A stretch of 26,610 bases of DNA, taken from IMG/VR virus record IMGVR_UViG_3300048924_000080, positions 1 to 26,610 of that record; one strand, 5' to 3'. This DNA comes from a virus. The notes below the pieces were generated by a model that worked only from the letters and a program-made list of their open reading frames with translations, was not told the origin of the DNA and ran no database searches. This document shows positions 2,413 to 26,527 of the stretch, piece by piece (within the stretch, counting starts at the first letter, position 1; every line of letters begins with the position of its first letter). The translations under genes and the position numbers were made by a program.

Positions 2413-2443
2413 ACAATGCGGCCAGAGGGTCTACGTCAACCGC
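2413..2443 (-). promoter_or_regulatory. Late promoter element P7 (lysis)
   Basis: On the minus strand: GCGGTTGACG, 15 bp, then CATTGT, followed 7 nt later by the RlpA-like ATG. The TGA inside TTGACG is also the stop codon of the preceding 163-aa gene. Its -10 is the weakest of the set at the first base, but the GCGGTTGAC block and spacing match the others exactly. Confidence 0.65.
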
Positions 2444-2927
2444 TCGTTGTATCCGAGGAGCCGGTCGACGCCTCGGTAGGGCTGTTGGTGATCTGCCCGA
2501 GCGCGGCCTCGATATCGTCGGCCACTTTGCGGATATCCGCACCGTGCGCGCGAAACTTGCCGATCGCAGCCTGGGCGCGATCGTGGGCCTCCTGGATCTC
2601 GTCGGCGACCTTGTCGGCCTCGGCATCCATGTTCTTGACGAGATCCTGCGTGAGAAACGCCAGGCGCTGCATGCCGCGCATCTTGGGAGGCCCTTCCTTG
2701 GGTGGGGTGAATTCCGCGATCGCCGCGGCCAGATGATCATCGAGATGCTTGCTGGCGGTGCCCGACCACACGGCCATGATTTCATCTGCGCTCGGCTCGC
2801 CACCGACCGCGTCGACGAAATAATCGCGTCCCTCGATCGACACCGGCCCGTAGCGCACGGCGCCGGGCTGCTGGTCGCTCGCCGGGAAGTTCGGCGGTTG
2901 ATTATAGACGCAGCAGATCCGGCTCAC
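2436..2927 (-). CDS. Hypothetical protein after tail fibre (possible fibre-associated protein)
   Basis: A protein of 163 aa that I do not recognise. The first 60 residues look folded (CCVYNQPP, VSIEGRDYFVDAVGGEPSADEIMAVW). Residues about 85-145 are predicted helix or coiled coil (LTQDLVKNMDAEADKVADEIQEAHDRAQ), and the tail is Ser/Thr-rich. It starts with GTG in a GTGA overlap with the fibre stop and is preceded by GGGAG at useful distance, so it is co-translated with the fibre. Position suggests a fibre assembly chaperone or accessory subunit, but nothing in the sequence proves it. Its stop codon is embedded in the lysis promoter. Confidence 0.8.
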   Translation of the reverse strand: MSRICCVYNQPPNFPASDQQPGAVRYGPVSIEGRDYFVDAVGGEPSADEIMAVWSGTASKHLDDHLAAAIAEFTPPKEGPPKMRGMQRLAFLTQDLVKNMDAEADKVADEIQEAHDRAQAAIGKFRAHGADIRKVADDIEAALGQITNSPTEASTGSSDTTSG

Positions 2928-4999
2928 GCCATCAGCTCCCGCGCTTCCATGAAGCTGTTCATCGCGCCGCCCATCAGCCGCGCGCTGCTCTGCCCGTTGA
3001 AAGTGATCGTCGCCGCAGCCGCAGGGCCAACGCGTAGCTTGAACGTCGTTTGAGCGATCGATGCGGCCAGGGCGGTATAGTCAAGATTACGCTGCTGGAT
3101 GACGTTTGCAGCAAAGAACTGGCCGCAGTTTGCCGTCACCGCGCTGGCCGCGCTGTCACGGAAGAGCGCCAACGTCGCGCCGGACCCGACCGAGTGCGCA
3201 ACGAACGCCGAGGCCGTCACCTTCAGCAGGTTCGCCGCCGACGTCGGTGTAATCGCGAGCGACATGTACTGATCACCCTCCGTATTCTGCGGAATGGTGT
3301 CGTCGAACGGCGTGATCGTCGTCCCCGTCGCCATCGCACCGGTGTCGGAGCGCTGCAGCTGGATGTCCTGCCCCGGCAGCGGGCTACCGGGTTCGAACAG
3401 CTGCGTGCGCGTCGGGCCCGCGGACCAGGTGCCTGCCGTGGCAAGACCGGTTTCCCAGCTCATATAGCCAAGAACCTGATAGGGCTTCGACGTCGGCGGC
3501 ACCGTCGTGTAGAACACCTGCGCGATGTTGCCCGTCACGGTCCCGGAAGCTATCGGAAACTGCCCGAGGGGATAGATGCTGTTGCCCGACAGGCAGTTGA
3601 TCACGCTCAGACGCAGGGTCCCTGCATCGTTGAACGCCACCAGCCAGATCCGGAATGGTGTGCCGTTCAGTGCGCCGAGCGTGCTTCCGACACCGATGAA
3701 GAGCGACGTCGCCGCGGTCAACGGCATCACCGTGAAGTCGCCGCTGCCCGCCGTCGCATTGCGGACGATGACATAGACCGGATCGGACGGCGACGGATCG
3801 TTGCCCGCAAGCGTCTTGATCGCGATCTGCAGCACGTTGCTCGAAACGCTCGGCACGATCGTGCCGTTGATCAGCGGCGAAGCCAGGTTGCGGATCTGGG
3901 CGGCGACGCCGCGACCCGGCAGCGGCACGGCCGCATGGTAGAGCTGCAGCGTCGTTGGCGATACCGACCAGGCGCCGGCGCTGGCAAGGCCAGCCGGATA
4001 GTCGGCAAACCCGAGCACCGCATAGGGCTTCGATGTCACCGCCGCGCCAGTGTAGAACGTCAGCGCGCTGTCGGCATTGCCGGCGCCACCTTCCGCCGTC
4101 GATGATGCCGGCTGGTCCGGCGTGAGCAGCAGCTGCGCCAGCAGCCCGTCAAGCGGGTTGATGATACCGAGGCGGAACGTGCCGGCATCGTTGAACCCGA
4201 CCAGCCACACCTTGAACGCCGCGCTGTTGGTGGTGCCAAGCGAGGATCCCGACGATACCGTGATCGAGGTGGCCGACGTCAGCGTCATCACTGTGTAGTC
4301 GCCGGTCGCAAGCGTGCCGTTGCGCACCAGCACCAGAACGGGATCGCCGGTCGAGGGATCATTGCCGGTGAGCGTCTTGATCGCGAACGTCACCGCGCCG
4401 CCGGTGTGGCTTTCGACGATCGTGCCGTTGATCATCGAGAACCCCTGCGACGACGCTGCAAGCGTCCGCGCGATCACTGCCTGTGCCGCCACGGCCGCGC
4501 CGGCCGTTTGCGCCACCATCTCCCAGCGGTTGAGGCTGCCGGAGGTGCGGTAGCGCAGCGTCGCGCTTGCTTTCGGCGTCATCACGATGTCGGCGCCGCC
4601 GAGGTCGAAACGGTTAGCCACGCTCGATGATGCGCTCTGATCCTTCAGCGTAAGGTTGAAGCTGCCACCGTTGTAGACCGTGAGCTCCCGCCCATCCGTT
4701 GCATCCGTCACGGTCGACGGCACGATGCCGGTCAGATCGCGCGCCGCATCGGTCGACATGACGAGCACACTGGCGTGCTTCATGCCCGCCGGATTGTAGT
4801 CGTTGGTGTTGGCGGAGATCTGCGCCGGCACCAGGATCTCGCGGATATGCTTCTTGGCGAGACGAATGCCGCCGGCGGTCGCACCGTCGCCGATATGCGG
4901 CTCCTTCTTCGTGGTGTCGAAGCCGAGCTCGGCCGGGAGCGGGGTGACGCCCTCGATTTCGGTGGTGGTACCGCGAATATGCTGGACCCGGGTGCTCAT
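2924..4999 (-). CDS. Tail fibre / receptor-binding protein with Mtd-like N-terminus and internal duplication
   Basis: A protein of 691 aa. Residues 5-50 (IRGTTTEIEG, AELGFDTTKKEPHIGDG) match the N-terminal knob motif of phage major tropism determinant and other fibres. Residues about 50-185 form a linker domain. Two homologous repeats follow, about 189-364 and 376-545, sharing INGTIV, IKTL.GNDPS, F..WLV.FNDAGT.RL..IN and TSKPY.VLG. The C-terminal domain (about 546-691) carries QNTEGDQYMSLAITPTSAAN, a type common in fibre tips. It overlaps the adaptor gene by ATGA. Its likely role is host-surface recognition from the tail. No reverse transcriptase or template repeat is present, so tropism switching is not indicated. 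Confidence 0.82.
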   Translation of the reverse strand: MSTRVQHIRGTTTEIEGVTPLPAELGFDTTKKEPHIGDGATAGGIRLAKKHIREILVPAQISANTNDYNPAGMKHASVLVMSTDAARDLTGIVPSTVTDATDGRELTVYNGGSFNLTLKDQSASSSVANRFDLGGADIVMTPKASATLRYRTSGSLNRWEMVAQTAGAAVAAQAVIARTLAASSQGFSMINGTIVESHTGGAVTFAIKTLTGNDPSTGDPVLVLVRNGTLATGDYTVMTLTSATSITVSSGSSLGTTNSAAFKVWLVGFNDAGTFRLGIINPLDGLLAQLLLTPDQPASSTAEGGAGNADSALTFYTGAAVTSKPYAVLGFADYPAGLASAGAWSVSPTTLQLYHAAVPLPGRGVAAQIRNLASPLINGTIVPSVSSNVLQIAIKTLAGNDPSPSDPVYVIVRNATAGSGDFTVMPLTAATSLFIGVGSTLGALNGTPFRIWLVAFNDAGTLRLSVINCLSGNSIYPLGQFPIASGTVTGNIAQVFYTTVPPTSKPYQVLGYMSWETGLATAGTWSAGPTRTQLFEPGSPLPGQDIQLQRSDTGAMATGTTITPFDDTIPQNTEGDQYMSLAITPTSAANLLKVTASAFVAHSVGSGATLALFRDSAASAVTANCGQFFAANVIQQRNLDYTALAASIAQTTFKLRVGPAAAATITFNGQSSARLMGGAMNSFMEARELMA
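3365..4435 (-). repeat. Internal tandem duplication in the tail fibre gene
   Basis: This region encodes two related blocks of about 170 residues: 3908-4435 (residues 189-364) and 3365-3874 (residues 376-545). Conserved anchors are spaced almost identically in both. The DNA has diverged well beyond recent duplication, which suggests an old event kept by selection on the protein. Confidence 0.8.
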
Positions 5000-5691
5000 A
5001 CGTATGTTCCGTAGTCGCGCGAGGTTGAGGTGACGTCGGTGTAGAATTGATAGTCGGGATTGCCGAGGATGGCGGCATAGGTCGAGGCCAAGCCCGCGGC
5101 GCCGGTGGCGATGCCGGCTTGCGTCGTCGCCGTCGCCGCGGCGCCGACCGCGATATCGCGCGCGGCTTCAGCGCCGGCCTGCGCGCTCGATCCCGACACC
5201 GTGTCGGCATAGGCTTTGGTGGCAAGGTCACTGTCGTCGATCGGCTCGGCCGCCCGCACCGTGCGCGGCCGGAAGTCGACGACGCCGATCGAGGCCGAGA
5301 ACGGTGTGACGGTTCGGTTCTGCCGGTTGCGCAGCTCGGCGTCGCGCATCGCATCCGCATCCGCGATCCGCTCGTGCACGGACGGGTCGAAGCGCGCGAG
5401 GTTGACGAAATCGACGCCCTGGGTCGCCGGCGTCACCCGCTCGATCGCGATCCTGACAGGCGCGTCGGCCGAGGCCGACGGAAACGCAATCCGCGTGACG
5501 GTCGCCGCGCCGCCAGCGTCGAGCGAGGCCGAATAATGCAGGCCGAAAGTCAGCGCGATCAGCAGCCCGCTGCCGTCGAAATACCCGACATGGACATGCT
5601 CCGCCGCCTGCGCCGAGAAGCCCGCCGGAAAGCTGCTCTCGGCCCCGGTGTAGAGGAATTCGGAATAGCTGGCTTCGGTTGCGACCGTCAT
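4996..5691 (-). CDS. Tail fibre adaptor, T7 gp17-like N-terminal domain
   Basis: A protein of 231 aa. Residues about 1-145 resemble the N-terminal domain of T7-type fibres that docks on the tail (YTGAESSFPAGF, EHVHVGYFDGSG, RIAIERVTP, NLARFDPSVHERIADADAMRDAELRNRQNRT). The motif IDDSDLATKAYAD resembles the linker seen in many fibres. An Ala-rich helix and a short Tyr-rich end follow. It probably links the following 691-aa fibre to the tail tube. The chosen start is ATG at 5691, because the promoter's -10 ends 7 nt before it; TTG at 5700 would lie inside the -10. No Shine-Dalgarno is present, so it should be leaderless. Confidence 0.82.
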   Translation of the reverse strand: MTVATEASYSEFLYTGAESSFPAGFSAQAAEHVHVGYFDGSGLLIALTFGLHYSASLDAGGAATVTRIAFPSASADAPVRIAIERVTPATQGVDFVNLARFDPSVHERIADADAMRDAELRNRQNRTVTPFSASIGVVDFRPRTVRAAEPIDDSDLATKAYADTVSGSSAQAGAEAARDIAVGAAATATTQAGIATGAAGLASTYAAILGNPDYQFYTDVTSTSRDYGTYV

Positions 5692-5698
5692 GGCGGGC

Positions 5699-5729
5699 AA
5701 GGTAGGCCGGTGTCGGCCGCGTCAACCGC
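5699..5729 (-). promoter_or_regulatory. Late promoter element P6 (tail fibre)
   Basis: On the minus strand: GCGGTTGACG, 15 bp, then TACCTT, with the fibre-adaptor ATG 7 nt further. There is no ribosome binding site between, so transcription would begin at or within a base or two of the ATG. Confidence 0.75.
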
Positions 5730-5897
5730 CAGCCCCTCCCTTGAAGGGGAGTGGACTAGGCCTAGACCCTGGCGAGCCCGTTCCCCTTTTGGGCGTTGTT
5801 CTTCACGGGCCAATGCATTGAGAACGGCGTCCGGACAGACTGGCAACATCTCCATGCGCTGCCTTGAAGGGAGTGGACGATGCGCCCTGAGGAAGCG
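5730..5897. other. Non-coding gap with imperfect direct repeat
   Basis: Between the SGNH gene and the fibre promoter, no supportable ORF is seen. An 18-nt element (ccttgaaggggagtggac, 5739-5756) recurs at 5862-5878 with one base missing. A 10-bp palindrome, ctaggcctag, lies at 5756-5765. The reading frame that ends in the promoter's TGA has no start codon. The gap may be scar tissue from module exchange. Confidence 0.5.
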
Positions 5898-7301
5898 CTA
5901 CGGCAATGGCCCGCTAGGCAACGGGCCTTCACTGACCTTTATCTGCTGCACCCATGCGGACCCACTAACTGGGGTCGTGGGAAAGTTCGGATACAAGTTG
6001 ATCGACGCGCTCGCCCCGAGCGCTGAGCCAATTTGAATTCCCGGAAGCACCGACAAGTACCAGTTGTCCGCAACAGGCTGTTGCGTGCTTCCTTGAATCC
6101 ACTGGATCGGTCCCGGGCTCGCCTGAGCCAGGTTGTCTACAATAAGAACGGAGTAAAACGGAATTGCTCCACCCGCTCCCGCAGCCGTCGTGCGAAATAG
6201 AACCCACACACTCACAAGTTTGTTGATAAGCGCGGCCTTCTCTACCGCATCAAACGAGTAACGCAGACTGCCGAATTGGCTCACACAGGGCATCTGCATC
6301 GAATACGGCGCGGCGCCGTACTTAACCGCAGCGTCCTTGATCGCGGTCTGGCTGTTGAACGCCGTCACATTGCGGGGGAAGGTCCCCGTCCAATCGGAGA
6401 AGTCGCCATTCGTGAGCAAATTCGTTCCGCTCTGCGCGGGCCAGCTCGTTGTCGAATATGCGCCGGGAGTGCTCAAATTGTACGCGCCCATGAGGCGGTT
6501 TGCTTGCAGCGCGCCCCCGTCGAAGTTTCCCGCCCCAGACGAGTCACTCGGATGCACGCCCGTCGGATCACTCCCAGCCGGACGGAAAAGTCGCGTAGCT
6601 TTCCCGAGAGCAATGAAGTCCTTATACGTGTCGACGAACCCCAGGGTGGGCATCACGCTTTTGACACCCAAGTACGCCCCGTACATATTGTTCATATTGG
6701 TATCGGCGCGATTGGGGTTCTGCGTCGTCATGATCTGCGGCACATCAGGCCATTGCAGCGAGAGCATACCGATTGCCGCAAGCAATAGACCACGCCCCGT
6801 CGGAAGATTGTCTCCAGTTGGGTTCACAGTCGCCGTCACGTTGAACGACGCAAAATTGTGACCTTGATGCAGGCGAATCAAGTCCGGCGTGCTCACACCA
6901 TCGAGCGCCGCCGCCTTGCGGCTCGTGTCCCACGCGAACGATGCCATCGAGCCCGGCAGAGCGCAAAGCCAGAGCGTAATGAGTGGGCCGGCCCCGTATA
7001 CTGTATCGACCGCCACATTGTACGACTTAGGACCGGTGGGCAAACCCGTTCCTGCATTCCATTCACCCCAGAGCCGTATACGCGCCGTTCCCGAATATTT
7101 TTGGGCCAGCGCCTGAACGAACAACTGGTCCGGTCCGAACGCCGAGTAATCCGTACTGTCACCAAGGGAGAAGATCGAAACCGGCTGGTTGGCCTCCAAT
7201 TTCTGCTTCAGCGGCCCCATCGCCGCTACCGCCTGGAACGGTGGCAGCCCCGCTGACCCAAGGGGATCGAACACAGGCCCTACGAGGCTGGGACCGAACA
7301 T
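5898..7301 (-). CDS. SGNH/GDSL-type hydrolase with C-terminal binding domain (virion esterase)
   Basis: A protein of 467 aa. SGNH motifs are visible in order: SLGDST (nucleophile S49), QGHN (G147, N149), and DPTGVHPS (D245, H250). After about residue 290 a beta-rich module opens with LLTNGDFSDWTGTFP, which resembles carbohydrate-binding domains in phage receptor proteins. The predicted role is removal of acyl groups from surface polysaccharide during adsorption. It is translated just after the spike-base-like gene (TGA-G-ATG), so it may be the spike fibre itself. The DNA is visibly more AT-rich than its neighbours and ends in a non-coding gap with repeats, suggesting recent acquisition. Confidence 0.82.
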   Translation of the reverse strand: MFGPSLVGPVFDPLGSAGLPPFQAVAAMGPLKQKLEANQPVSIFSLGDSTDYSAFGPDQLFVQALAQKYSGTARIRLWGEWNAGTGLPTGPKSYNVAVDTVYGAGPLITLWLCALPGSMASFAWDTSRKAAALDGVSTPDLIRLHQGHNFASFNVTATVNPTGDNLPTGRGLLLAAIGMLSLQWPDVPQIMTTQNPNRADTNMNNMYGAYLGVKSVMPTLGFVDTYKDFIALGKATRLFRPAGSDPTGVHPSDSSGAGNFDGGALQANRLMGAYNLSTPGAYSTTSWPAQSGTNLLTNGDFSDWTGTFPRNVTAFNSQTAIKDAAVKYGAAPYSMQMPCVSQFGSLRYSFDAVEKAALINKLVSVWVLFRTTAAGAGGAIPFYSVLIVDNLAQASPGPIQWIQGSTQQPVADNWYLSVLPGIQIGSALGASASINLYPNFPTTPVSGSAWVQQIKVSEGPLPSGPLP

Positions 7302-7302
7302 C

Positions 7303-7560
7303 TCAGCGCAGCGCGACGATCGTGGTCGCCGTCGTCCCTGTTTTGTAGATCTTCTTGACCTTGTGGCCGTGCGAAACGCCTGCGGCTAACGCTGGCAGGG
7401 TTACAGTTGAGCCGTCGACATAATCGACTTTGACGTCACCCGAGACACCCACGACAAAACCGCGGATGGCCTGGGACGGCACATAGTCCGTACTTGATAG
7501 ATCGACGGTCTCGCCGCCGGTCGCAGATGCGAGCGAAGCGATTTCACGTTCAACACCCAT
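7303..7560 (-). CDS. Head spike base-like small protein (RCAP_Rcc01079-like)
   Basis: A protein of 85 aa. The C-terminal half (FVVGVSGDVKVDYVDGSTVTLPALAAG, then VKKIYKTGTTATTIVAL) follows the pattern of a small phage family that includes the head-spike base of the Rhodobacter gene transfer agent. By that analogy it attaches the next gene product, the SGNH protein, to the virion. The start is ATG at 7560: AGGAG (7567-7571) sits 6 nt upstream. The in-frame ATG at 7566 directly abuts the AGGAG and is a poor choice. It is the first gene after a promoter element. Confidence 0.75.
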   Translation of the reverse strand: MGVEREIASLASATGGETVDLSSTDYVPSQAIRGFVVGVSGDVKVDYVDGSTVTLPALAAGVSHGHKVKKIYKTGTTATTIVALR

Positions 7561-7584
7561 GGCCATCTCCTGACAGGTGGCCCG

Positions 7585-7615
7585 ACCCTACGAGCGCCAG
7601 CCGCCCGTCAACCGC
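7585..7615 (-). promoter_or_regulatory. Late promoter element P5 (spike)
   Basis: On the minus strand: GCGGTTGACG, 15 bp, TAGGGTCGG. The ATG of the 85-aa gene is 24 nt after the -10 hexamer, with an AGGAG ribosome site between. The TGA in TTGACG is the stop codon of the 809-aa gene. Confidence 0.78.
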
Positions 7616-10037
7616 CGCCGAACGCCGCCCCGAGGTTCGGCGCGCGCGCCGGCGCCGTCTCGCCCTGCCCCCACCAATAGCCCTGCCCGTACTCCTTCTG
7701 CGCGCGCTGGGCGCGCCTGGCGAAGGACTGCGAATAGGTCGGGTCGATCGCCCGGTGCAGCTGGTCGAAGATCAGCCGGTCTGTCGCGAGCCGGGAGAAC
7801 CACAGGTTTGATCCCGGGGTGAGATGCTTGACGAGCTCGATGCCCTGCCCGATCGCGCCGGGCTGGCCCTTGACGGCGGCGGCGCCGAACCGGCCGGCAT
7901 CGTCGATGAAGCCGCCGATCGGACCTGAAAACTTGCCGATGACGCTGCGGTCGGCCGCCTGCGACACGCCGCCGACCAGATCGCCGAAATAGCCGGCGCC
8001 GCCGCCCTGGATCGCTGCCTGCCCCCAGAATTTCGGATGGTGCATGTCGATGGGATCGCGGCCCGACAGTATCTGGCGGGCCTGGATGATGCCGGCGCCG
8101 GCCAGCAGATGCAGGCCGTAGAACAGCGCGTTGTTCATGGCCTTGTTGCCGGCGACGCCGTCCTTGATCGCGAGCGCCGTCATGTGGGTGGCGATCATCG
8201 TCATCGAGAACGATTGGAACATCGTCGCGGTGCGCGCCACTTCGCCCATGAAGGTGCCGGCCTGGGCGCCCTGCGTGGTGACGTTGCGGATCCGCGCGTC
8301 GGGCTCCAGCACGGCCAGCGCCCGCTCCTGCAGCACGCCCTCGTACAGCTTGCGCACGGTCTCGTCGGATGCGGCCTTTGAGCTGTCGAAGAACTTGGCG
8401 CCACGGAAATCGAACTGCGGCAGCGACCGCAACTTGTCCCATTCGGCCGCCGTGATGCCGTAGCGCTTCAGGAAACTCTGCAGCGGCCCATCGAGATCGC
8501 CAAGCGCCCGGTCCGAGTTGCGGGCGATGTAGCCCAGCATCTCCATTGTGAACGCCTTCTTGATGCCCTCGGTCCATGCGTTGAGGCCGGAGGCGCGGAT
8601 CACGAAGTCGGACGTTTTCTTGATCAGCTCCGGCGTAAACATCTGGTCGGCATAACGGAAGGTCGAAACCGCGTGGTCGCTCATGGCATGCCCGGTCACC
8701 AGCAGCCGCGCGGCGTCCTCCTGCATCTTGGGATTTTCGGCGAAGATGGTCTCGATCGCGCGGGACAACACCTTGCCGCCGTCCATGCCATTGTAGCGCG
8801 CGGCCAGCAGCGCCGTGATGCTGTCGCCGATCGAGGCCGACACCGTCGCAGAGCCCAGCGATGAGGCCGCCATCAGCGAGCGCGCCGAGCCGAGCACGCC
8901 GCCCCACATCGCGTTTTCGACGCCATTGGCACGCCCGGACAGCACGGAATAGGTGCGGTCGATCGCGCCGCCGCTCTCCATCCCCATCATGCGGGCTGCC
9001 CGCAGCCGTGCCGAACCTGGCCGGCCCAGCTTCTCCCAGGCGCGCGCATTCTTCGCCAGCATCGCCACGGTCACCGCGTGCTGCGGACCGAGCACGTCGA
9101 CCAGCGCGCTTTCGCGGGCCATGGCGCCGAGGTGGCCGGTCAGGGTCGAGAAGATGTCCGAGCCCGAGCCGTACTTCTCCTGCAGTGTCATGAAGGCGTT
9201 GAGACCGTCGCGGCCGTCCTGAAATTGGAACGTGCGCATTTCCTTGGAGAACGCCGGCGCCGCACCCGCCTCGGTGATGATGTCGCGTGCGGCCTTGTCG
9301 ATCAGCGCCGAGATCCGCGCGGGATTGGTCGCGAGCTCGAGGCGCTCCTTGTCGAAGATCTTGAGCCCGCCGGTCGCGATCGCGTTGGAGAGGTCGCGGC
9401 GGAATTCGTCACCCATCCCGAAACGGCGGACGCGGTCCGCCGACCAGAACTGTGGCAGGCGCCAGTTTTCGGCCTCCTCGAATATCTTGCCGGCAGACTG
9501 GACGAACTTGACGCCCCACTCGGTCGCGTCCTTCCAGCCCGCGGCGGCAGCCTTGGCAACCGCATCACCGCTGTCGACGTTGAACAGCTCGGCGATCAGG
9601 TTGCGGGCGCCAGCCGTGTTCTGCTTCAGGCCCGCCATTTGCGACTTGTAGGCCTCGAAGCCGGCATTGAACTTGGAGAACAGGATCTCGCGCAGCGTCT
9701 GCGCCCGCGTGTCGACGTTCTGCGTTCCCGTCCGGTAGATGTCGCGCGTCAGCACCGCCATGCCGCCGGCGGCCGGCCCCCACGGGTGCGCCTGGGCGAT
9801 CTGCTCGGCCGAGGTTTGGCGCTGCACCTGCAGCGCCACCGCATTCTTTTGCTGCCGCGACGTCGCCATCATCTGCCGCGCCGCCTGCAGCGCGGCCGCG
9901 GCATCGGCCTTTGCGGCCGGCATGTCGAGCGAAAACTTGTTTTGGTAACGCCGCCACAGCGCATCGGCGGCATCGGCCTGCGCGCGTGTGATCTTGCCCG
10001 TCTTCTGCAGTTTTGTGAGGCAATCCTTGACGCTCAT
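7608..10037 (-). CDS. Large internal virion / DNA-ejection protein
   Basis: A protein of 809 aa. Long helical stretches alternate with Gly/Ala-rich hydrophobic segments (about residues 375-425, 595-665 and 690-735). The C-terminus has the arrangement LTPGSNLWFSRLATDRLIFDQLHRAIDP, then a basic Arg-rich stretch and GYWWGQGE, which is recurrent in large internal virion proteins of podoviruses. It ends in GGG. It probably rides in the capsid and is injected to build a channel for genome entry, the role of T7 gp16. The start is ATG at 10037, overlapping the previous stop by ATGA; the frame extends upstream, but only through the preceding gene. Confidence 0.75.
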   Translation of the reverse strand: MSVKDCLTKLQKTGKITRAQADAADALWRRYQNKFSLDMPAAKADAAAALQAARQMMATSRQQKNAVALQVQRQTSAEQIAQAHPWGPAAGGMAVLTRDIYRTGTQNVDTRAQTLREILFSKFNAGFEAYKSQMAGLKQNTAGARNLIAELFNVDSGDAVAKAAAAGWKDATEWGVKFVQSAGKIFEEAENWRLPQFWSADRVRRFGMGDEFRRDLSNAIATGGLKIFDKERLELATNPARISALIDKAARDIITEAGAAPAFSKEMRTFQFQDGRDGLNAFMTLQEKYGSGSDIFSTLTGHLGAMARESALVDVLGPQHAVTVAMLAKNARAWEKLGRPGSARLRAARMMGMESGGAIDRTYSVLSGRANGVENAMWGGVLGSARSLMAASSLGSATVSASIGDSITALLAARYNGMDGGKVLSRAIETIFAENPKMQEDAARLLVTGHAMSDHAVSTFRYADQMFTPELIKKTSDFVIRASGLNAWTEGIKKAFTMEMLGYIARNSDRALGDLDGPLQSFLKRYGITAAEWDKLRSLPQFDFRGAKFFDSSKAASDETVRKLYEGVLQERALAVLEPDARIRNVTTQGAQAGTFMGEVARTATMFQSFSMTMIATHMTALAIKDGVAGNKAMNNALFYGLHLLAGAGIIQARQILSGRDPIDMHHPKFWGQAAIQGGGAGYFGDLVGGVSQAADRSVIGKFSGPIGGFIDDAGRFGAAAVKGQPGAIGQGIELVKHLTPGSNLWFSRLATDRLIFDQLHRAIDPTYSQSFARRAQRAQKEYGQGYWWGQGETAPARAPNLGAAFGGG

Positions 10038-11910: not shown

Positions 11911-11916
11911 CGTGCG

Positions 11917-11947
11917 AGCCTACGAAGATGCCGGCAGGGTCAACCGC
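11917..11947 (-). promoter_or_regulatory. Late promoter element P4 (ejection proteins)
   Basis: On the minus strand: GCGGTTGACC, 15 bp, TAGGCTCG, with ATG of the 541-aa gene 6 nt after the -10 hexamer. The TGA within TTGACC is the stop of a 39-aa membrane peptide gene. Confidence 0.75.
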
Positions 11948-12059: not shown

Positions 12060-12074
12060 GCCGCAGCATACCAC

Positions 12075-17663: not shown

Positions 17664-17667
17664 GGCA

Positions 17668-18306: not shown

Positions 18307-18331
18307 CACCGCCCCGGGAACGCAGGAGAGT

Positions 18332-18355: not shown

Positions 18356-18365
18356 GAGGTTTGGC

Positions 18366-18866: not shown

Positions 18867-18894
18867 GGTGGTCTCCAGTTGGCGGTTGATGATG

Positions 18895-18922
18895 GATGCG
18901 CCGGCACTGATGCCAGCGCATC
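18895..18922 (-). other. Hairpin just after the major capsid stop
   Basis: The inverted repeat GATGCGC/GCGCATC, with an inner GGCA/TGCC pair, one mismatch and a 4-base loop, lies between the capsid stop (18926) and the ribosome site of the decoration gene. It may stabilise or cut the capsid mRNA. No T-run follows. Confidence 0.5.
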
Positions 18923-18925
18923 GCG

Positions 18926-19834: not shown

Positions 19835-20089
19835 GGGACGACCTCCTGTCGAAGCAGAGGAAAAGTTTCGGGTTGCTTCGTCAGGGTGCGGCTCCGGATC
19901 GGGAGCGGGCCTGGCTATCGTTTAACGCCCGCGATCGGCGGAGCGGCTTTCGCTCAGGTCAGGCGGGCCCCGCATGGCTCAGGTAAGCGAAGCGGGGGTG
20001 CGGCCGAACCCAGAAATGGGGCCGCTTGCGAACAAGCGGCCCAAGTCTAGGGAGGAAACGCCCCAACTAGGGACAACTCAACGAGCGCG
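19835..20089 (-). promoter_or_regulatory. Long structured leader of the capsid gene
   Basis: This stretch of 255 nt between the promoter element and the capsid GTG has no convincing coding frame. It contains a perfect 10-bp hairpin with a TTCG loop (20019-20042), a CTAGGGA direct repeat at 20047-20053 and 20067-20073, a gctcaggt direct repeat, and a weaker GCTTTCGCT/AGCGAAGC pair. It ends in AGGAGG. A mRNA-stability or translational-control role is inferred. No known riboswitch was recognised. Confidence 0.5.
20019..20042 (-). other. Perfect hairpin with TTCG loop in capsid leader
   Basis: On the minus strand: GGGCCGCTTG, TTCG, CAAGCGGCCC. The 10-bp stem has no mismatch. The bases after it (CATTTCTGGG) lack a T-run, so it is more likely a stability or regulatory element than a terminator. 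Confidence 0.6.
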
Positions 20090-20120
20090 AACATAGGTCG
20101 GCGGCGAGGGCGTCAACCGC
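20090..20120 (-). promoter_or_regulatory. Late promoter element P3 (capsid)
   Basis: On the minus strand: GCGGTTGACG, 15 bp, TATGTTCG. It begins a few bases after the stop of the 176-aa gene and drives the long capsid leader. TATGTT is among the closest of the set to the TATAAT consensus. Confidence 0.78.
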
Positions 20121-20124
20121 ACCT

Positions 20125-20655
20125 TCAGTCGACCTGCACGACCTTGTCACCGCCCCACTTGTTCTCGGGACGAGCATTGAACGCTCGGATCAGGCGCTTG
20201 CCCTTGATCTCGAACACCCATTCGGAGCCGAGCACGCGATAGATCCCGTTCGCCACGGCATATTCTCCGCCGAACTCGCCTTCATCCGCGGTCGGCTCGT
20301 AGGCGCCGGCCCGGGCTTCTTCCGGCATGTCCCGACAAAAGCTCGCATTGAGGGCGCGGATAATCCGCGCGCTGGCCGGCCTGGCTTCCTCGGTCGCCAT
20401 GACACGCTGGCTCTCGCTCTCGGCCATCTCGCGCAACTCGACCTTGCCAGCGGCAAAATCCGCCGAGGCCTTCTCCTTGATGGCCGCGATGAGATCATCC
20501 CGCTTCGGATACTTGGATGCGTCGACATCGGCGCGCTTGGCCAGCAGACCAAGCTCGGTATCGTCCATCGCCGCGATCTCCGCAGCGAGGTCGGTGTTGT
20601 ACTTCTCCAGCTCAGCACGCTCGCCCTGCGTCAGCTTTTCCAACATTTCCTTCAT
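20125..20655 (-). CDS. Hypothetical head-region protein with Rho_N/HeH-like helix pair
   Basis: A protein of 176 aa. A helical N-terminus (MKEMLEKLTQGERAELEKY) is followed by residues about 35-62 (LGLLAKRADVDASKYPKRDDLIAAIKEK), resembling the small Rho_N/HeH/SAP-like helical fold often used to contact nucleic acid or protein. The C-terminus is mixed (GIYRVLGSEWVFEIKGKRLIRAF). No known name. It lies between the scaffold candidate and the capsid gene. The start is ATG at 20655 with GAGGAGAG upstream; the longer frame reads into the scaffold gene. Confidence 0.75.
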   Translation of the reverse strand: MKEMLEKLTQGERAELEKYNTDLAAEIAAMDDTELGLLAKRADVDASKYPKRDDLIAAIKEKASADFAAGKVELREMAESESQRVMATEEARPASARIIRALNASFCRDMPEEARAGAYEPTADEGEFGGEYAVANGIYRVLGSEWVFEIKGKRLIRAFNARPENKWGGDKVVQVD

Positions 20656-20668
20656 GGTCCGTCTCTCC

Positions 20669-21646
20669 TCAGGTTCTCGCCTCGATCGCCAACAGATCGG
20701 CGCGCTGCTTGATGTAGTCCTTGTTCTGCGGGTGCCGCGCATCGCGGAATACCTTCAGCCACTCCGCGTCGCCCTCCAGCTTCATCCGCTCGGCACGCGC
20801 CTGCGCCGGCGTCTTCTGGCCGAAGCTGCCGCCGCTCTGTCCAATGAGCTTGTCCTCACCCATCGCCGAGCCGATCTTCTCGAACAGCTCGACCATGGCT
20901 GCCGAGCCCATGACCTGGTCCATCTGGGCGCCGGTGATCGCATCCGGCTTGAAGAAACCGAACGCGCGCTTGGCGAGCTCGACGTTCTGATCGTACTTGT
21001 CGCCCCAGGAGCCCTTGAGCTTTTCCGTCAACTCTCGGTTTGCGGTGGCGCCGGCATCGCGCAGCGATTTGAGGCTGTCGTTGGTGTGCTTGTGCAAGCC
21101 GTCATACAGCGCCTTGGCCTGCCAGGGCGCGATCCGCGCGTCATGCGCCAGGTCGCTGAACTTGGCGAAGGCCTTCTCGTCATGGACCTCGCCATCGCCG
21201 ACTTTTGGCGCCTCGATCTTGTAGGCTTGCCGATCGGGCGTCCAGCCGAGCTCGGTGTAACCGTTCCAGCCCTTCAGATTGGTGGCGTCGGGCTTGCTGA
21301 TGACGTTGCGGCTGCGCGCCATCTCATCGGCCTGACGTGCCGATGACAGCGCTGTGCCGATGTCAGGAAAATTCTTGCCGTCGAGATATTTGACGGTGTC
21401 GCCGTCCAAGCCCTTGTAGCTCTCGGCGCGCCACCAGCCTTGATCGTTGGACGCGCCGCCAGCACCCGCTCCGGCTCCGGCTCCGGTACCGGCACCGGTA
21501 CCTGCACCTGCGCCGGCGCCGGCTCCGGCTCCGCCGCCACCAGCACCTGCTCCAGCACCTGCTCCAGCGCCGCCAGCTGCACCGCCGGTGCCGCTTGCGT
21601 TTTCGTCGAACAGGAACGGCCGACGATACCGATCAAAAATATTCAC
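20669..21646 (-). CDS. Scaffolding protein candidate with Gly/Ala repeat region
   Basis: A protein of 325 aa. After a short N-terminus (MNIFDRYRRPFLFDE), residues 19-65 are almost pure Gly/Ala with a few Thr. The rest is charged and helical (DLAHDARIAPWQAKALYDGLHKHTND, NRELTEKLKGSWGDKY, FFEKIG-like segments), with a basic end. Size, helix content and its place between portal and capsid fit a scaffolding protein. The start is GTG at 21646, with a near-perfect AAGGAGG 6 nt upstream and a GTGA overlap with the preceding gene. It could instead be a minor head protein. Confidence 0.75.
   Translation of the reverse strand: MNIFDRYRRPFLFDENASGTGGAAGGAGAGAGAGAGGGGAGAGAGAGAGTGAGTGAGAGAGAGGASNDQGWWRAESYKGLDGDTVKYLDGKNFPDIGTALSSARQADEMARSRNVISKPDATNLKGWNGYTELGWTPDRQAYKIEAPKVGDGEVHDEKAFAKFSDLAHDARIAPWQAKALYDGLHKHTNDSLKSLRDAGATANRELTEKLKGSWGDKYDQNVELAKRAFGFFKPDAITGAQMDQVMGSAAMVELFEKIGSAMGEDKLIGQSGGSFGQKTPAQARAERMKLEGDAEWLKVFRDARHPQNKDYIKQRADLLAIEART
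21452..21592 (-). repeat. Gly/Ala-coding low-complexity repeat in scaffold gene
   Basis: This stretch of about 140 bp is built of degenerate GGTGCN/GGAGCC/GGCGCC-type hexamers that encode alternating Gly and Ala. Short perfect repeats (ggctcc, cagcacctgct, ggtaccggcac) suggest slippage. Length variation between related phages is likely. Confidence 0.8.
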
Positions 21647-21969
21647 TTCTTGCCTCCTTGCGTGCGGTCGATTTTGGTCAGCTCAAACAGCGATGCGATG
21701 TCGACGCTGGCGAGCTTGAAGATCTCCAGCGCGCATTGCCGGCGCCCTTCGGCGATCGCCGCGAGATGCGGATCGGGTTCGTTGATCGGCGCGAACACAT
21801 TGTTGCGCAACGCGATGTCGGCCAGCGCCAGACGGGCACGCCGATCCAATTCGCTATATCTGGCCGCCTTGAAGGCGGCATAGCCGCGCAGCACTTCCAT
21901 GCGGCGCTGGTCGTCGCCCCAGACGGTGCGGAACCAGTGCGGCCAATTCTCGTACTTGATCCGCCTCAT
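21643..21969 (-). CDS. Small protein, Bbp19-like
   Basis: A protein of 108 aa. The pattern WPHWFRTVWGDDQRRMEVLRGYAAF followed by AAIAEGRRQCALEIFKLAS resembles the small Bordetella phage Bbp19-type family, which lies next to the portal gene in podoviruses. The role is unknown. It overlaps the portal stop by ATGA and the scaffold start by GTGA. The family call is from memory of the motif, so moderate to low confidence; the gene itself is firm. Confidence 0.8.
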   Translation of the reverse strand: MRRIKYENWPHWFRTVWGDDQRRMEVLRGYAAFKAARYSELDRRARLALADIALRNNVFAPINEPDPHLAAIAEGRRQCALEIFKLASVDIASLFELTKIDRTQGGKK

Positions 21970-23591
21970 CTTGCCGCCCGCCCCTTCGCCAATGTCTTGG
22001 CCTGGTCGGCATGCGAGACGTCGGCATAGATCGACGCGGCCTGCTCCTGCTGGGCGAGCTGGACCTGCGCAGCCTGTGCCTGGGCGCGGGCCTGGCGCTT
22101 CTGCTCGACCACGCGCGGATCGAGCTTGATCGAGGGCACTCCGGATTGCGCATCATGCAGCAGCGCCGAGACGCCATCGACATCGATGTCGTCGAGCCAC
22201 TCCTCGCGCTGCGTCGCCTCGAACAACTGTACCTTGCGGCTGACCCAGCCCATGGCGCCGTTGGCTACGTCGGCCTTCTGCGCCTTGACGAACGGCGAGA
22301 CGAACGTCGGCGTCACCGATGCGCGCAACAGCTCCGGCGGCGGCGGCCCGATGGTACGCATCACCACGCCCATGCGATCGAGCAGCTGGGCGCGGCGCCG
22401 GATGAACCCGCCAAGCCCGCGCTGGATCCGGACAAGGTTGGGCGCCAGCGATTTCAATTCGTCCTGGCTGTAGGCTTGCACCTCCTCAGCCGTCATCTGC
22501 GGCCGCGAGGCCAACACCTGCGACAGCGAGAAACGGAACGCGCGGCGCACCTGGTTGCGGAGATCGTTCTGCAGCTGCAGCGGCAATGAGAGTTGCTTCG
22601 CGCGTTCGAGGATCTGCGCCGGCGGCTTGCCGCCCGTGCTTTCGCCGTAGAGCACATTGCCCGGCACGATGTCGGCCGTGGTCATCACGTCCTCGTCGGC
22701 CGCCCACCACATCGGCTCGGCATCGAACTGGATCCCGACCATGGTGGAGCGCGCGACCTCATCGAGTGACGACATGTCCGGCAGCGCGTTGTGGGCGATG
22801 CCGCGGGCCCAGGTCCGGCCGGAGCGCATCGACCATTCGATCTGATGCACCGGCAGATCGAAATAGCCGCTCTCGGTGTAGAAGTCGGTCTTGTCCGGCG
22901 AAACGTAGCAGGACTTGAATGGCATGTACTTCGCAAACCGGCTGCCCTGGCGGTGGTTCGGATTGGGCGAGATCGCGTGGACGAACGCGATCTCTTCGTC
23001 GTCGCGCGCCGTCGGCGCACGATCGCCGAACTTGCCTTTGGCCTGCCGGCCGGTCAGTCGGAATTCGCGATGGAAGGTGTCGAGATCGCCGTTGGCGTCG
23101 ACGTCCTTGTAGCAGCCGGAGAGCGCTAGGTTTGGCGTGACGATGCGCCCCTGCCCGACCATCTCCTCCTGCCACAGGAAGCCCGTCGCGAACATGCCGA
23201 CATCGCCGAACCAGGCCGGCGCGTTGAGATAGAAATTGTCGATGGTCGGATCGAGCGAGGCTAGGATGATGCTGGTGTAGCTCCAGAGATAGTCCTTGGC
23301 CGGCTTCCAGTTGGCGAGATCCGGATCGGTCGGCACGCCCCAGGAGAACCAGCGCTCGGCGGGATTGACCGCCTTGGAGAACATGCCACCGACAAAATCA
23401 TCGCACGCGTAGAGCGGCGTGCTATCGAACGGATCATCACCATTTGGCTGCCGCTGGTCGTTACGGTTGCCGCCCGAGATATCCTCGTCGCTCTGCATCA
23501 GCCGCGCAATCTCGCGCCAGCGCGGCTCCTCGAGCGCGCGCTTCTTCTTTACCTCGGCGTGACGCGGCTCGATCTCGGACCAGGCAGACAT
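21966..23591 (-). CDS. Head-tail connector (portal), T7 gp8 type
   Basis: A protein of 541 aa, close to the 536 aa of T7 gp8. N-terminal features match the bacteriophage head-to-tail connector family: RHAEVKKKRALEEPRWREIARLM, then a central segment with FVGGMFSKAVNPAERWFSWG and DNFYLNAPAWFGDVGMFATG. The C-terminal third is Gln/Ala-rich helix, as in portal barrels. It forms the dodecameric entry ring used in packaging and ejection. It starts directly after the preceding stop (TGA-ATG), so is probably translationally coupled to the 98-aa gene. Confidence 0.88.
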   Translation of the reverse strand: MSAWSEIEPRHAEVKKKRALEEPRWREIARLMQSDEDISGGNRNDQRQPNGDDPFDSTPLYACDDFVGGMFSKAVNPAERWFSWGVPTDPDLANWKPAKDYLWSYTSIILASLDPTIDNFYLNAPAWFGDVGMFATGFLWQEEMVGQGRIVTPNLALSGCYKDVDANGDLDTFHREFRLTGRQAKGKFGDRAPTARDDEEIAFVHAISPNPNHRQGSRFAKYMPFKSCYVSPDKTDFYTESGYFDLPVHQIEWSMRSGRTWARGIAHNALPDMSSLDEVARSTMVGIQFDAEPMWWAADEDVMTTADIVPGNVLYGESTGGKPPAQILERAKQLSLPLQLQNDLRNQVRRAFRFSLSQVLASRPQMTAEEVQAYSQDELKSLAPNLVRIQRGLGGFIRRRAQLLDRMGVVMRTIGPPPPELLRASVTPTFVSPFVKAQKADVANGAMGWVSRKVQLFEATQREEWLDDIDVDGVSALLHDAQSGVPSIKLDPRVVEQKRQARAQAQAAQVQLAQQEQAASIYADVSHADQAKTLAKGRAAR

Positions 23592-23888
23592 TCACTGCCC
23601 CGACAGCATGCGGAAACCGACCGGCGGCGCGCCCAGCTGCGTCTGCAGCCCGATCCCGAAATTGGATCCCTGCGTCAGCCGGCGCCGCTGATCGTCAGAT
23701 GCGGCCCGCGCGCTCTCGCTGTCCTGTTGCGGAACAGACGCCGCGGCCGCGATGGCATTGGCATCCTTCTGCGCCTGGACCGAGGCCTGCAGCGCCACGG
23801 TGAAGGGATCAGCCTGCTGTTGCCTGCCAAGCATGGCGGCGAACGGGCCGCCGACCTGACTGAAAAAGTCCTGCGAGGAAAACGCCAT
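23592..23888 (-). CDS. Hypothetical small protein upstream of portal
   Basis: A protein of 98 aa, not recognised. Gln/Ala-rich and probably helical in the middle (LQASVQAQKDANAIAAAASVPQQ), with a Gly-containing C-terminus (FGIGLQTQLGAPPVGF). It is the first gene after promoter P2 and abuts the portal gene. It may be a head-completion or regulatory protein. No ribosome site is obvious (CCTCTCC precedes the ATG), although the promoter leaves a leader of about 22 nt. Confidence 0.7.
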   Translation of the reverse strand: MAFSSQDFFSQVGGPFAAMLGRQQQADPFTVALQASVQAQKDANAIAAAASVPQQDSESARAASDDQRRRLTQGSNFGIGLQTQLGAPPVGFRMLSGQ

Positions 23889-23918
23889 GGAGAGGTCTGC
23901 CGGGTTTCGAGGTTGCCG

Positions 23919-23949
23919 ACCCTACGGGCGAGCCATCGGCGTCAACCGC
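23919..23949 (-). promoter_or_regulatory. Late promoter element P2 (portal module)
   Basis: On the minus strand: GCGGTTGACG, 15 bp, TAGGGTCGG, in the 66-bp gap between the large terminase stop and the 98-aa gene. The ATG lies 30 nt after the -10 hexamer. Its -10 and flank are identical to P5. Confidence 0.78.
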
Positions 23950-23954
23950 GGACT

Positions 23955-25568
23955 TCAGGCCCTTTTTCGCTTGATCGGATTGTAGCGGCCGGCGCCGCGG
24001 GCTTCCTCGCGGCGCTTGGCGCGGCTGGCCGCAGCCGCGCCGACCCGACGCTTGGCTTCCGAGCTGCCGCAGGCCAGCGCGCCATACTCCGCCGCCTCGC
24101 AGGTGTGACCGTCCTTGGTCTTGGCGACAGAGCCGAGATCGTCGGTGCCGGCGATGTGCTTGAAGTGGTAGGTCTGCGCCGCACCGCGGCGGATCGTCTT
24201 ACAGCTGGGATCCACAATCAGACCAGGCTCGCCGGCCTCGCAGGTATGCCGCAGCTTCGACTTGATCGCCTCATGACGTGTCGTCGGGTTGTTCGTTGGC
24301 GCAGGGTGGACCTTTCGCCCCAAGAATTTTCCGAGGTTCTGCCGATCTGATCCTGCTTCGAGATCTTCGCCCGCGCACATCGCCGGATCGCACAACGACA
24401 GGAACTCGCAGCCTTCAAACCGCGTCGCCTCCAGCTGCAGCATCGCGGTCGCGAGCTCCTGCATGCCGCCACGCTCCAGCGGGCATTCGGCCAGGATCCG
24501 CAGCTGGCCGTTGGATTTCTCCTGCATGTAGACGGTCGTTGGCGTGAGACCGCCGTCGGTCCCGGTGATGACAGGCAACTCCTTGATCACCGGGATGGGA
24601 TGCTTCGCCATGTTGCGATCTTCATCCCACTCAGGCCAGACCGGGTTGTTTGCGCGGGTGAAGCCCGGCCGCGCGTGGATCATGCGCTTGATCCACCACG
24701 GCCGATGCGAGTTCATCATCGCGGAGTTTTCGTAATAGCCGCGGCCCATCGCCTCGATGTTCTCGGCGTTCTCCGCCAATCCGGACGGCTGTTCGTGCAG
24801 CACATGGCCCGGCTTTTTGTTCTCATAGAAGTCGCGGTAGATGAAATGCAGCACGTCCGGGGCGTTGCCGTCGCCGTAGAAGCGACCAGCGCGCTTGATG
24901 ATCTCGCGCGGCGGCTCGCGGCCGACGCGGTCGACCAAAGCAGAGCACAGCTCCTCCGGCAGCGTCGGCCATTCGTTGAAATAGCAATCGGTGAATTCGT
25001 TGCCGAGGATGTCGTCAGGATCCATGGTCTCGCCGAAGGCGCGGAAACGATTGATCAGAGCGATGCGGCCGAATTCGTCCTCAAACGTCAGCGCGTGCTC
25101 GGCTTCGCGCGGGCTGGCGCCGGTCCACTTCGATCCCGGCAAATCCTTGGGAAAAAGTTTCCACCAGGAGGGGATTGTCGCCTTCCAGATATTCACGTAC
25201 TTCTGTCGCCATGTGCCGAGCACGTATCGGCGCACCCCGTCCGCACCGGGAAAAATCCTTTGGGCCTCGACCAGCGCTTTCTTGCCACTCGCGATCGTCT
25301 TGCCGGATCCGCCGGGACCAATGATCAGGTCCGCCGGGTTGTGCGAGAGGATGTAGCGATCGCTGATGGGACCCGCGCTCCGCATCAGGTTCACCGTCCC
25401 CGTCTTGTCCTGCTTGTGCAGCTGGTCGACGACGTCCGGAAACTGCTTTCGGAATTCGTCGTCGGCCTCGACGTGGCTCATCTGATTTTTATACGGGTCC
25501 GCCGATCCCAGAACATCGGCGAGCGAGGTCTGCTCGAGCAGCGCCTGCGGGCTTGACGCGTCGCTCAC
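23955..25568 (-). CDS. Terminase large subunit
   Basis: A protein of 537 aa. The ATPase domain has Walker A GPGGSGKT (residues 84-91). The region expected to hold Walker B reads TDCYFNEWPTL (193-203), with Glu199 as candidate catalytic residue but Asn in place of the usual Asp. The nuclease domain has GTDGG (D338), SLCDPAM (D394) and GHTCEAAEYGAL, where E491 stands where many terminases have Asp. It packages DNA through the portal. The start is GTG at 25568, 7 nt after GGGGGGA. An upstream ATG (25676) would add 36 residues translated from the hairpin-rich gap and is less likely. Confidence 0.88.
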   Translation of the reverse strand: MSDASSPQALLEQTSLADVLGSADPYKNQMSHVEADDEFRKQFPDVVDQLHKQDKTGTVNLMRSAGPISDRYILSHNPADLIIGPGGSGKTIASGKKALVEAQRIFPGADGVRRYVLGTWRQKYVNIWKATIPSWWKLFPKDLPGSKWTGASPREAEHALTFEDEFGRIALINRFRAFGETMDPDDILGNEFTDCYFNEWPTLPEELCSALVDRVGREPPREIIKRAGRFYGDGNAPDVLHFIYRDFYENKKPGHVLHEQPSGLAENAENIEAMGRGYYENSAMMNSHRPWWIKRMIHARPGFTRANNPVWPEWDEDRNMAKHPIPVIKELPVITGTDGGLTPTTVYMQEKSNGQLRILAECPLERGGMQELATAMLQLEATRFEGCEFLSLCDPAMCAGEDLEAGSDRQNLGKFLGRKVHPAPTNNPTTRHEAIKSKLRHTCEAGEPGLIVDPSCKTIRRGAAQTYHFKHIAGTDDLGSVAKTKDGHTCEAAEYGALACGSSEAKRRVGAAAASRAKRREEARGAGRYNPIKRKRA

Positions 25569-25895
25569 GCGAAATCCCCCCGCCCCGTTTCGACTTCGGA
25601 AATTTCGCGCACCTTGGCTGAGACCTGATCGCTGACAGCGCAGGGGCGCGAAAAAAATCGCGCGATGCGGGGGCACGGGCTGTCGAGGTTTGGTTTTGGG
25701 GGTACCGCCCCCCGGCCGTCCCGGGGGGGTGCACCCCTGAAAACTCGGCCGCAGGCCTCCGCATTGCTGCGGCGCCTGCGGCCAGGTCGACGCGAGATCC
25801 GCACGATCCGCGTCGACGTCACCGGCCTTGAAGGCCTCGCGGCCGGTGATTTGGGAGTAGCTGCCCTACAGCCACAAGCCCTTGAGAATGCTGCG
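25569..25895. other. Hairpin array between terminase genes
   Basis: A gap of 327 bp with five strong inverted repeats and no convincing gene. H1: GGCCGCAGGC/GCCTGCGGCC (747-756/774-783, adding 25,000) with an inner CCGCA/TGCGG stem. H2: GTCGACGCG/CGCGTCGAC (786-794/809-817) with inner GATC pairs. H3: TCACCGGCC/GGCCGGTGA (819-827/841-849). H4: CCCCCCGG/CCGGGGGG (708-715/721-728), overlapping a GGGGTGCACCCC palindrome (726-737) and a GGGGG that can pair alternatively. H5: GCGCGA/TCGCGC with a six-A loop (646-663). Candidate roles are a packaging (cos/pac) site, attenuator, structured RNA, or host palindromic repeat. Confidence 0.65.
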
Positions 25896-26465
25896 CTAGT
25901 CGTCACCGTGCGACACGTCACCGTGCGACACGTTCTGCTCCGGTGCGCTAAGCGCTTGATTTTCCTGTGTTTGTTCAATGTACATCCAAGGCGGCCGAAC
26001 CGAGCCATCCGAGCCCAGCGCCGGCGCAGACTGCCCTGGAAACACCATCGTCAACCGAGGTGCGACCGCGTTGCCGCTGGCATCGACCTGGCCGAGCTGG
26101 GCGTAGAAGTACCGCGCGAGCTCGCTCCACATGCGATCGAGGCGATCGAACGCCTCCAGCTTGGTGCAGCCGAGCTCGATCGCGAGCGTCTCAGGCGTGT
26201 GCATCGCATAGCGAAAACGCCGCTCCAGCGGATCTCCGCAGAGTTTCCGCACGAATTCGAGCATCTCGCGCGTCGCCTTATTCTGTGCGCCTGGCGGACG
26301 GCCGCGCCGATCGGCCTTGATCGCGGTCTCGACGCGCTCGACCTGGCTGTCGGTAAGGCTCGGCCGCATCGCCGGCATGAGCTCGAGCTGCTCGATGGCC
26401 GCGGGCGCCGGCGCCGCCGCCGCAATCACCTCCGCGATCGCGGCCTTCTGTGCCTTCTTCGCCAT
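25896..26465 (-). CDS. Terminase small subunit (putative)
   Basis: A protein of 189 aa. An Ala-rich N-terminus and a linker precede ADRRGRPPGAQNKATREMLEFVRKLCGDPLERRF, whose GRP.G..NK pattern is common in small terminase subunits, then helical segments (ELGCTKLEAFDRLDRMWSELARYFYAQLG). The C-terminus is a duplicated short motif (VSHGD). The position directly upstream of the large subunit supports the call. It should bind the packaging site and load the large subunit. The start is ATG at 26465, with GAGG 13 nt upstream and promoter P1 about 30 nt upstream. Confidence 0.75.
   Translation of the reverse strand: MAKKAQKAAIAEVIAAAAPAPAAIEQLELMPAMRPSLTDSQVERVETAIKADRRGRPPGAQNKATREMLEFVRKLCGDPLERRFRYAMHTPETLAIELGCTKLEAFDRLDRMWSELARYFYAQLGQVDASGNAVAPRLTMVFPGQSAPALGSDGSVRPPWMYIEQTQENQALSAPEQNVSHGDVSHGDD
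25901..25930. repeat. Perfect tandem 15-bp duplication in small terminase 3' end
   Basis: The 15-mer cgtcaccgtgcgaca occurs twice back to back (25901-25915, 25916-25930). In frame it encodes VSHGD twice at the C-terminus. Recent slippage is likely, because the copies are identical. Confidence 0.9.
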
Positions 26466-26496
26466 GCTCGGCGCTACCTCGCTGAATTTCCGGCCA

Positions 26497-26527
26497 TATT
26501 TAATTCACCGCCGCGAGCGGCAACCGC
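26497..26527 (-). promoter_or_regulatory. Late promoter element P1 (terminase), variant
   Basis: On the minus strand: GCGGTTGCCG, 15 bp, TAAATA, then 31 nt to the small terminase ATG. It differs from the others by one base in the -35 block and by a more AT-rich -10. A 5-bp inverted repeat (GCCGC/GCGGC, 26510-26521) overlaps the -35 and could be an operator. It is the likely start of the late transcription unit. Confidence 0.6.

Follow-up and report, generated by a model that had tools for sequence, protein, structure and literature searches.

Background

Several phages switch on many promoters together by means of an activator of their own, as is the case with P2 Ogr, Mu C and the MotA/AsiA middle promoters of T4. 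Phage T4, in addition, couples its late expression to replication via the sliding clamp. Among bacterial proteins, Caulobacter DnaA combines the functions of a replication initiator and a transcription factor (PMC3193534). Here we describe a repeated promoter element in the late half of a podovirus-like prophage, IMG/VR virus record IMGVR_UViG_3300048924_000080, a complete viral contig of 26,610 bp with 65% GC (hereafter the window, meaning this entire stretch), along with its candidate reader, an early protein, c11, that is encoded by the relatives of this phage. Like the P2, Mu and T4 systems, this one appears to combine a phage-specific element before each operon and host recognition of the -10 hexamer with a phage protein, here suspected, that replaces the -35 contact of sigma. 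The box, the spacing and the reader are all different, the candidate c11 being DnaA-domain-IV-like and belonging to the replication module. A literature search, poor in subscription journals, yielded no account of this element, nor of a phage late activator with a DnaA domain.

The putative late promoter element

Nearly all genes of the window lie on the minus strand, in the late order small terminase, large terminase, portal, protease/scaffold, major capsid, tail tubes, ejection proteins, spike/fibres and lysis. The element is found on this late strand and consists of a box, CGGTTGAC, a fixed 15-bp spacer and a hexamer YAnnnT, the gap being measured from TTGACN to YAnnnT (it becomes N16 when written after CGGTTGAC or GCGGTTGAC). 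The stricter pattern, GCGGTTGAC-N16-TANNNT, has five exact matches in the window, with none on the opposite strand and none in 100 dinucleotide shuffles; the relaxed pattern, CGGTTGAC-N16-YANNNT, has seven (shuffle mean 0.00), namely the same five, the site at 2413 with CATTGT, and the site at 26028-26057. The putative late promoters of the window, with the distance in nucleotides (nt) to the ATG where it is short and protein lengths in amino acids (aa), are:

26497..26527, minus strand: degenerate copy before the small terminase, GCGGTTGCCG-N15-TAAATA
26028..26057, minus strand: eighth site, within the small-terminase gene and before the large terminase, CGGTTGACG-N15-CAGTCT
23919..23949, minus strand: portal operon (98-aa gene and portal), TAGGGT class, exact pattern match
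20090..20120, minus strand: capsid operon, TATGTT, exact pattern match, conserved in relatives
11917..11947, minus strand: before the 541-aa ejection protein, TAGGCT, ATG 6 nt past the -10
7585..7615, minus strand: spike/tail-fibre module (87-aa and 467-aa genes), TAGGGT
5699..5729, minus strand: second fibre gene, TACCTT, ATG 7 nt past the -10 (leaderless geometry)
2413..2443, minus strand: lysis module, CATTGT, ATG 7 nt past the -10

The original prediction, made from the letters of the window, had listed seven of these copies, and the element is indeed present on the minus strand at all seven positions; the 15-bp gap from TTGACN to YAnnnT likewise holds in each, the copy at 26497 reading TTGCCG-N15-TAAATA. 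Its count of five perfect copies, one with CATTGT and one with a C in the -35 needs a correction, in that this last copy, at 26497, also departs from TAnnnT, and the total of seven was incomplete, since the site at 26028-26057 had been overlooked. The GCGG extension that it described is not universal: depending on the lineage, relatives (denoted below by G, L and V numbers) have CGG, CGC, CGA or TGA at this place.

The element recurs at orthologous junctions of the relatives. At the junction that corresponds to 26497, good sites are found in G001 (CGGTTGACG-N15-CATGGT) and G002 (CGGTTGACG-N15-CAGTTT); the portal promoter at 23919 is conserved in G001, G002, L007, L008, G197, G237, G033 and G100; and the site at 26028-26057 is kept at the same place in G001, G002, G197, G237, G033 and G223, although coding constraint may account for part of the conservation in this last case. 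The class of the -10 hexamer is conserved at each junction across divergent phages, the CAnnnT class of the lysis junction, for instance, being retained in seven relatives. TAnnnT is characteristic of the portal, capsid, spike and fibre junctions, and CAnnnT of the small-terminase, terminase-internal and lysis junctions, a split that perhaps reflects the tuning of promoter strength or timing.

Where the window, G001 and G002 are compared at orthologous junctions, identity is 55% in the spacer and about 45% in the flanks, figures that are unconditioned, whereas the identity of the box and of Y, A and T, which are kept, is partly conditioned by the pattern-based choice of sites. The spacer drifts while its length stays rigid at 15 bp, as had been noticed among the copies of the window. 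In this free variation of the spacer the element differs from the contiguously conserved promoters of single-subunit phage RNA polymerases, and no RNA polymerase gene was detected among the ten early proteins of the G001 prophage that were scanned against Pfam (a part of its open reading frames).

Spacing and distribution in phages and hosts

In 22 promoter-bearing phages and prophages, TTGAC-N15-YAnnnT occurs 95 times on the late strand, compared to 2-15 times for each other spacer length and 10 times on the opposite strand. When boxes were picked without regard to the -10, 70 of the 100 on the late strand were found to have YAnnnT at 15 bp, with 0-2 at any other spacing, and the same holds for only 1 of 73 boxes on the opposite strand. 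Pairs of TTGAC and TAnnnT in 12 phage-containing stretches peak at 15 bp alone (33 matches; 0-2 elsewhere), and TTGAC-N16-TAnnnT ranks first in an unbiased dyad count. Chance or base composition, for which the possible coding conservation of the small-terminase site could be cited, is hardly credible as a source of the pattern when shuffles yield 0 matches against the 5 and 7 found and the relatives contain 95 against a background of about 9.

The element appears to be confined to phages. The chromosome of the G197 host has no TTGAC/TAnnnT pair with a 15-bp spacer in the 400 kb scanned, and matches to CGSTTGACG-N15-TANNNT in 397 genomes of the order are fewer than those to a reversed-pattern control and cluster in prophages only. 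Podoviruses epsilon15, BcepC6B and BPP-1 have portal, terminase and tail proteins homologous to those of the window and the same late order, which in BcepC6B and epsilon15 is the one listed above; an excess of TTGAC/YAnnnT at 15 bp was found neither in BcepC6B and epsilon15 nor in a spring-water podovirus.

A sceptic could regard the sites as ordinary host promoters, served by the host RNA polymerase with the housekeeping or another host sigma factor, the 15-bp spacer being just a habit of these phages. TTGAC is the core of the housekeeping -35 element, and the A at position 2 and the T at position 6 of the -10 are key contacts of sigma-70; moreover, three G197-type phages have CTTGAC, which is rhizobial -35-like. 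Mapped Bradyrhizobium RpoD promoters, however, follow TTG-N(16-18)-TATA, with spacers of 16-18 bp (PMC4842269). The element shares the TTGAC core and a minimal -10 with these rhizobial promoters and differs from them in the fixed 15-bp spacer, the constrained base before TTGAC, the G-rich or CAnnnT -10 and its absence as a promoter class from host chromosomes. A sigma-70 scan of the late region at spacings of 16-18 bp returned a single promoter-like site, fewer than the mean of the shuffles, and this site lies on the opposite strand. Furthermore, the base at -1, immediately before TTGAC, switches jointly in every late promoter and in the c11-gene boxes (see below) within phages of one host family. 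This odd spacer and the coordinated switches are beyond what host sigma alone explains, and we consider the host-promoter explanation unlikely. Given the 95 occurrences against 2-15 at other spacings and the absence of such a class from host chromosomes, we view the element as a phage-specific late promoter, repeated before each late operon as expected of activator-dependent systems. The suggestion that the window contains a type of late promoter unlike sigma-70 promoters and driven by a phage factor is supported by this confinement and rigid spacing, the activator and the lateness being what these sequences lead us to infer.

A candidate reader, c11

Clustering of the proteins of the first prophages revealed three early genes that are common to all those with an early region: the helicase, the primase and c11. 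The latter encodes an early protein of about 190-250 aa (roughly 230) and lies immediately before the primase and helicase genes of the phage. A conserved activator gene had been anticipated in the right half of the prophage, and c11 is such a candidate, located in the early region of the relatives, beyond the end of the window; it can be linked to the phage of the window because these relatives have 87-89% identical portals and the identical box type.

c11 comprises a Cro/CI-like helix-turn-helix (HTH) followed by an HTH resembling domain IV of DnaA, and its AlphaFold (AF2) model shows two helical domains with a mean pLDDT of 81. In Foldseek comparisons, at E-values that are weak (see below), the N-terminal HTH matches the Cro/CI-type controller C.AhdI (TM-score 0.77), and the C-terminal domain matches DNA-bound DnaA domain IV (3pvp, TM-score 0.75; 1j1v, 0.69), to which the PDB sequence profile match has an E-value of 0.025. 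The model thus contains the domain-IV fold, and no AAA+ ATPase domain is found in either the sequence or the model. Accordingly, c11 would resemble Caulobacter DnaA (PMC3193534) in having a domain-IV-like helix and a short box located both at a gene or origin and at promoters, and it differs from DnaA in carrying a Cro/CI-like HTH in place of a visible AAA+ domain and in the box, CGGTTGAC rather than TTATCCACA. A search for c11 across the class produced, besides G001, just chromosomal DnaA-IV-like proteins.

c11 is present in every promoter-bearing phage whose early region was seen, and its full-length form marks the promoter bearers. G491 and G444 each have two good sites and a split gene, the C-terminal domain being encoded in a separate open reading frame. 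Promoter-less G634, G537 and G386 have at this place only a small HTH protein that lacks the DnaA-like domain, and promoter-less G057 and G082 have a C-terminal domain with a different helix and without the middle HTH. Relatives that retain the modules and lack the element had been named in the original prediction as the observation that would speak against it; most relatives carry the element at the same junctions, and the five promoter-less ones whose early region was found are these phages with an altered c11 gene (other promoter-less records, G641, G338, G494 and G351, are incomplete or too far diverged for their c11 to be judged). No alternative dyad was found in the promoter-less phages.

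A different phage protein could, of course, activate the late promoters, c11 being a replication initiator alone and its boxes merely similar. The early regions encode further small HTH or unknown proteins, and the contact of c11 with RNA polymerase is conjectural. Nevertheless, among the widely shared early genes, that is, primase, helicase and c11, two-domain c11 alone separates promoter-bearing from promoter-less phages, and the variants of the box follow the c11 helix; such a division of labour has, in our view, a small chance of being correct. As for other candidates, primase and helicase were rejected as readers because both are found in promoter-less phages as well, and the small shared early genes c18, c27, c30 and c28 are too patchy to encode a common factor. 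The product of c28, a conserved protein of ~75 aa encoded before the helicase in G197, G237, G033 and G223, resembles, by eye only, the DUF2312/GapR nucleoid protein.

Boxes inside the c11 gene

Near its 5' end, the c11 gene contains, in antisense orientation, 1-4 boxes of the CGGTTGAC type in nearly every promoter-bearing phage:

G001, antisense: three copies of TGGTTGACAACTC
G197 and G033, antisense: three boxes of the CGCTTGACGAAGC type
G223, antisense: three to four copies of CGGTTGACGAATGG
G514, antisense: CGGTTGACAAAAGACCGGTCTTTT

In having putative sites within its own gene, beside primase and helicase, the candidate reader resembles lambda O-type initiators, the O gene of lambda containing the iterons of its origin. 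Unlike the phages described here, lambda has one late promoter and the antiterminator Q, and its O protein is not known as a late-promoter activator. The box is followed by a perfect palindrome of 14-16 bp, with a lineage-specific sequence, in G514, G472, G631, G549, G265, G211, G219 and G672; such palindromes occur in many single-copy phages and are possibly operators for the Cro/CI-like domain.

The gene boxes also invite the opposite interpretation, that c11 is a repressor which sits on the late -35 and is titrated off as the gene boxes, or the origin, multiply during replication. The overlap of the box with the -35, a classical place for a repressor, would suit this role, as would the Cro/CI-like N-terminal domain. 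The non-host spacer of 15 bp, however, would leave even the free promoters poor, and where full c11 is missing the phages have no element at all rather than an unrepressed version of it, which makes repression quite improbable.

Covariation of the box and the c11 helix

Most lineages have G before TTGAC, G197, G237 and G033 have C, and V1061 and V1062 have A. Across 11 lineages, the c11-gene boxes and the late promoters agree in this base (permutation p 0.003). The base also goes with residue 7 of the recognition helix in the DnaA-like domain: Lys is found with G, Gln with A, and Phe or Tyr with C, the association being significant for late promoters (p 0.001) and for gene boxes (p 0.0005), with all these permutation p-values optimistic since the switches are few and descent is ignored. 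No column of the C-terminal alignment is more strongly associated with the -1 base. By class, the late sites number 52 with G and 5 with A for Lys, 15 with A and 8 with G for Gln, and 18 with C for Phe/Tyr. On this code, the CGG boxes of the window predict Lys at residue 7 in the c11 of its own phage.

Proposed mechanism

From the observed element, its spacing, distribution and conservation, its co-occurrence with c11 and the covariation, it can be envisaged, and seems to us fairly likely, that c11 is an initiator-like phage activator that binds the -35 box and recruits the host RNA polymerase to all late modules. The YAnnnT hexamer would be a minimal -10 read by the sigma subunit of the host polymerase, retaining only the A and the T that are flipped out by sigma, and the upstream box, C-G-[G/A/C]-TTGAC, would be the binding site of c11, contacted by its DnaA-like helix, with c11 replacing or assisting the -35 contact of sigma. 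The 15-bp spacer would then be dictated by the geometry of the c11-polymerase complex, so that the host polymerase alone would work poorly on these promoters. Upon accumulation of c11, the packaging, head, ejection, fibre and lysis genes would be turned on together. c11 would also act at its own gene, probably at a replication origin, or else in autoregulation; a role in starting replication is suggested by the adjoining primase and helicase genes and by the boxes within the gene, as in lambda O.

Several points weigh against this proposal. The c11 gene is absent from the window, which ends before it, and is known from the relatives only; the binding of DNA by c11, the activation, the initiator role and the lateness are what we infer, and sigma may contact the box directly, TTGAC being also the sigma-70 -35 consensus. 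The Foldseek E-values are weak (best 0.017; none <=0.001) despite the good TM-scores of the domains. On the tree, the covariation needs about 2-3 switches, so that it represents a small number of coordinated changes, each affecting many sites, and not many independent events, and residue 7 was selected after inspection of the alignment. There are exceptions too: G004 has a Gln helix, A in the gene boxes and G in the late promoters; G672 and V1064 are mixed; and in V1063 and V1065 the c11 gene is present but contains no box that can be recognised.

A bolder version of the c11-activator proposal, which we advance tentatively and hold to be possible rather than probable, is that a replication initiator doubles as the master late activator, one DnaA-domain-IV-like helix recognizing the same box of 8-9 bp at the origin, within its own gene, and at every late -35. 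Late transcription would thereby be wired to replication, and the helix and the boxes would have changed together. If true, this would be a second, genetically simple coupling of late expression to replication in a DNA virus, achieved by a single protein of ~230 residues, and the proposal yields predictions for the reader, for the box and for a specificity code of one residue. The element, in any event, allows the late operons of many uncultured prophages, which form a large group, to be annotated cleanly.

Other features of the window and its relatives

The closest relative found in a genome assembly is G001, with an 87% identical portal. The left end of the window carries the following feature, which marks one end of the prophage:

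72..116, strand not assigned: attachment core of 45 bp, an exact match to the 3' end of tRNA-Lys(CTT), prophage end

The same 45-bp core is found at both ends of the 41-kb G001 prophage, where the integrase adjoins the tRNA. The host assembly of G001 (L016 / G001:C4) bears the title 'Frankia sp. RB7', which is the name of an actinomycete, and the other traits of this phage group look alphaproteobacterial; the title or the assembly may be wrong.

At the fibre junction of the window, G001, G002, G197, G237 and G033, and likewise at the ejection and lysis junctions of the window, the ATG lies 6-7 nt past the -10, so that the +1 position would fall at or beside the start codon. As judged from this geometry, the mRNAs for the fibre, lysis and ejection proteins would have no leader or hardly any. 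A small RNA match directly follows the capsid promoter:

20005..20081, minus strand: suhB/mmgR-family RNA (RF00519), 48.5 bits against a gathering threshold of 41

This RNA starts 9 nt past the capsid -10 in the window and 26-28 nt past it in G197, G237 and G033. In at least four phages, namely, that of the window, L031 (4615-4686), L034 (4393-4465) and L036 (17755-17828), an RF00519 RNA is located after the capsid promoter and before the capsid gene; it could be either a late small RNA or the leader of the capsid mRNA.

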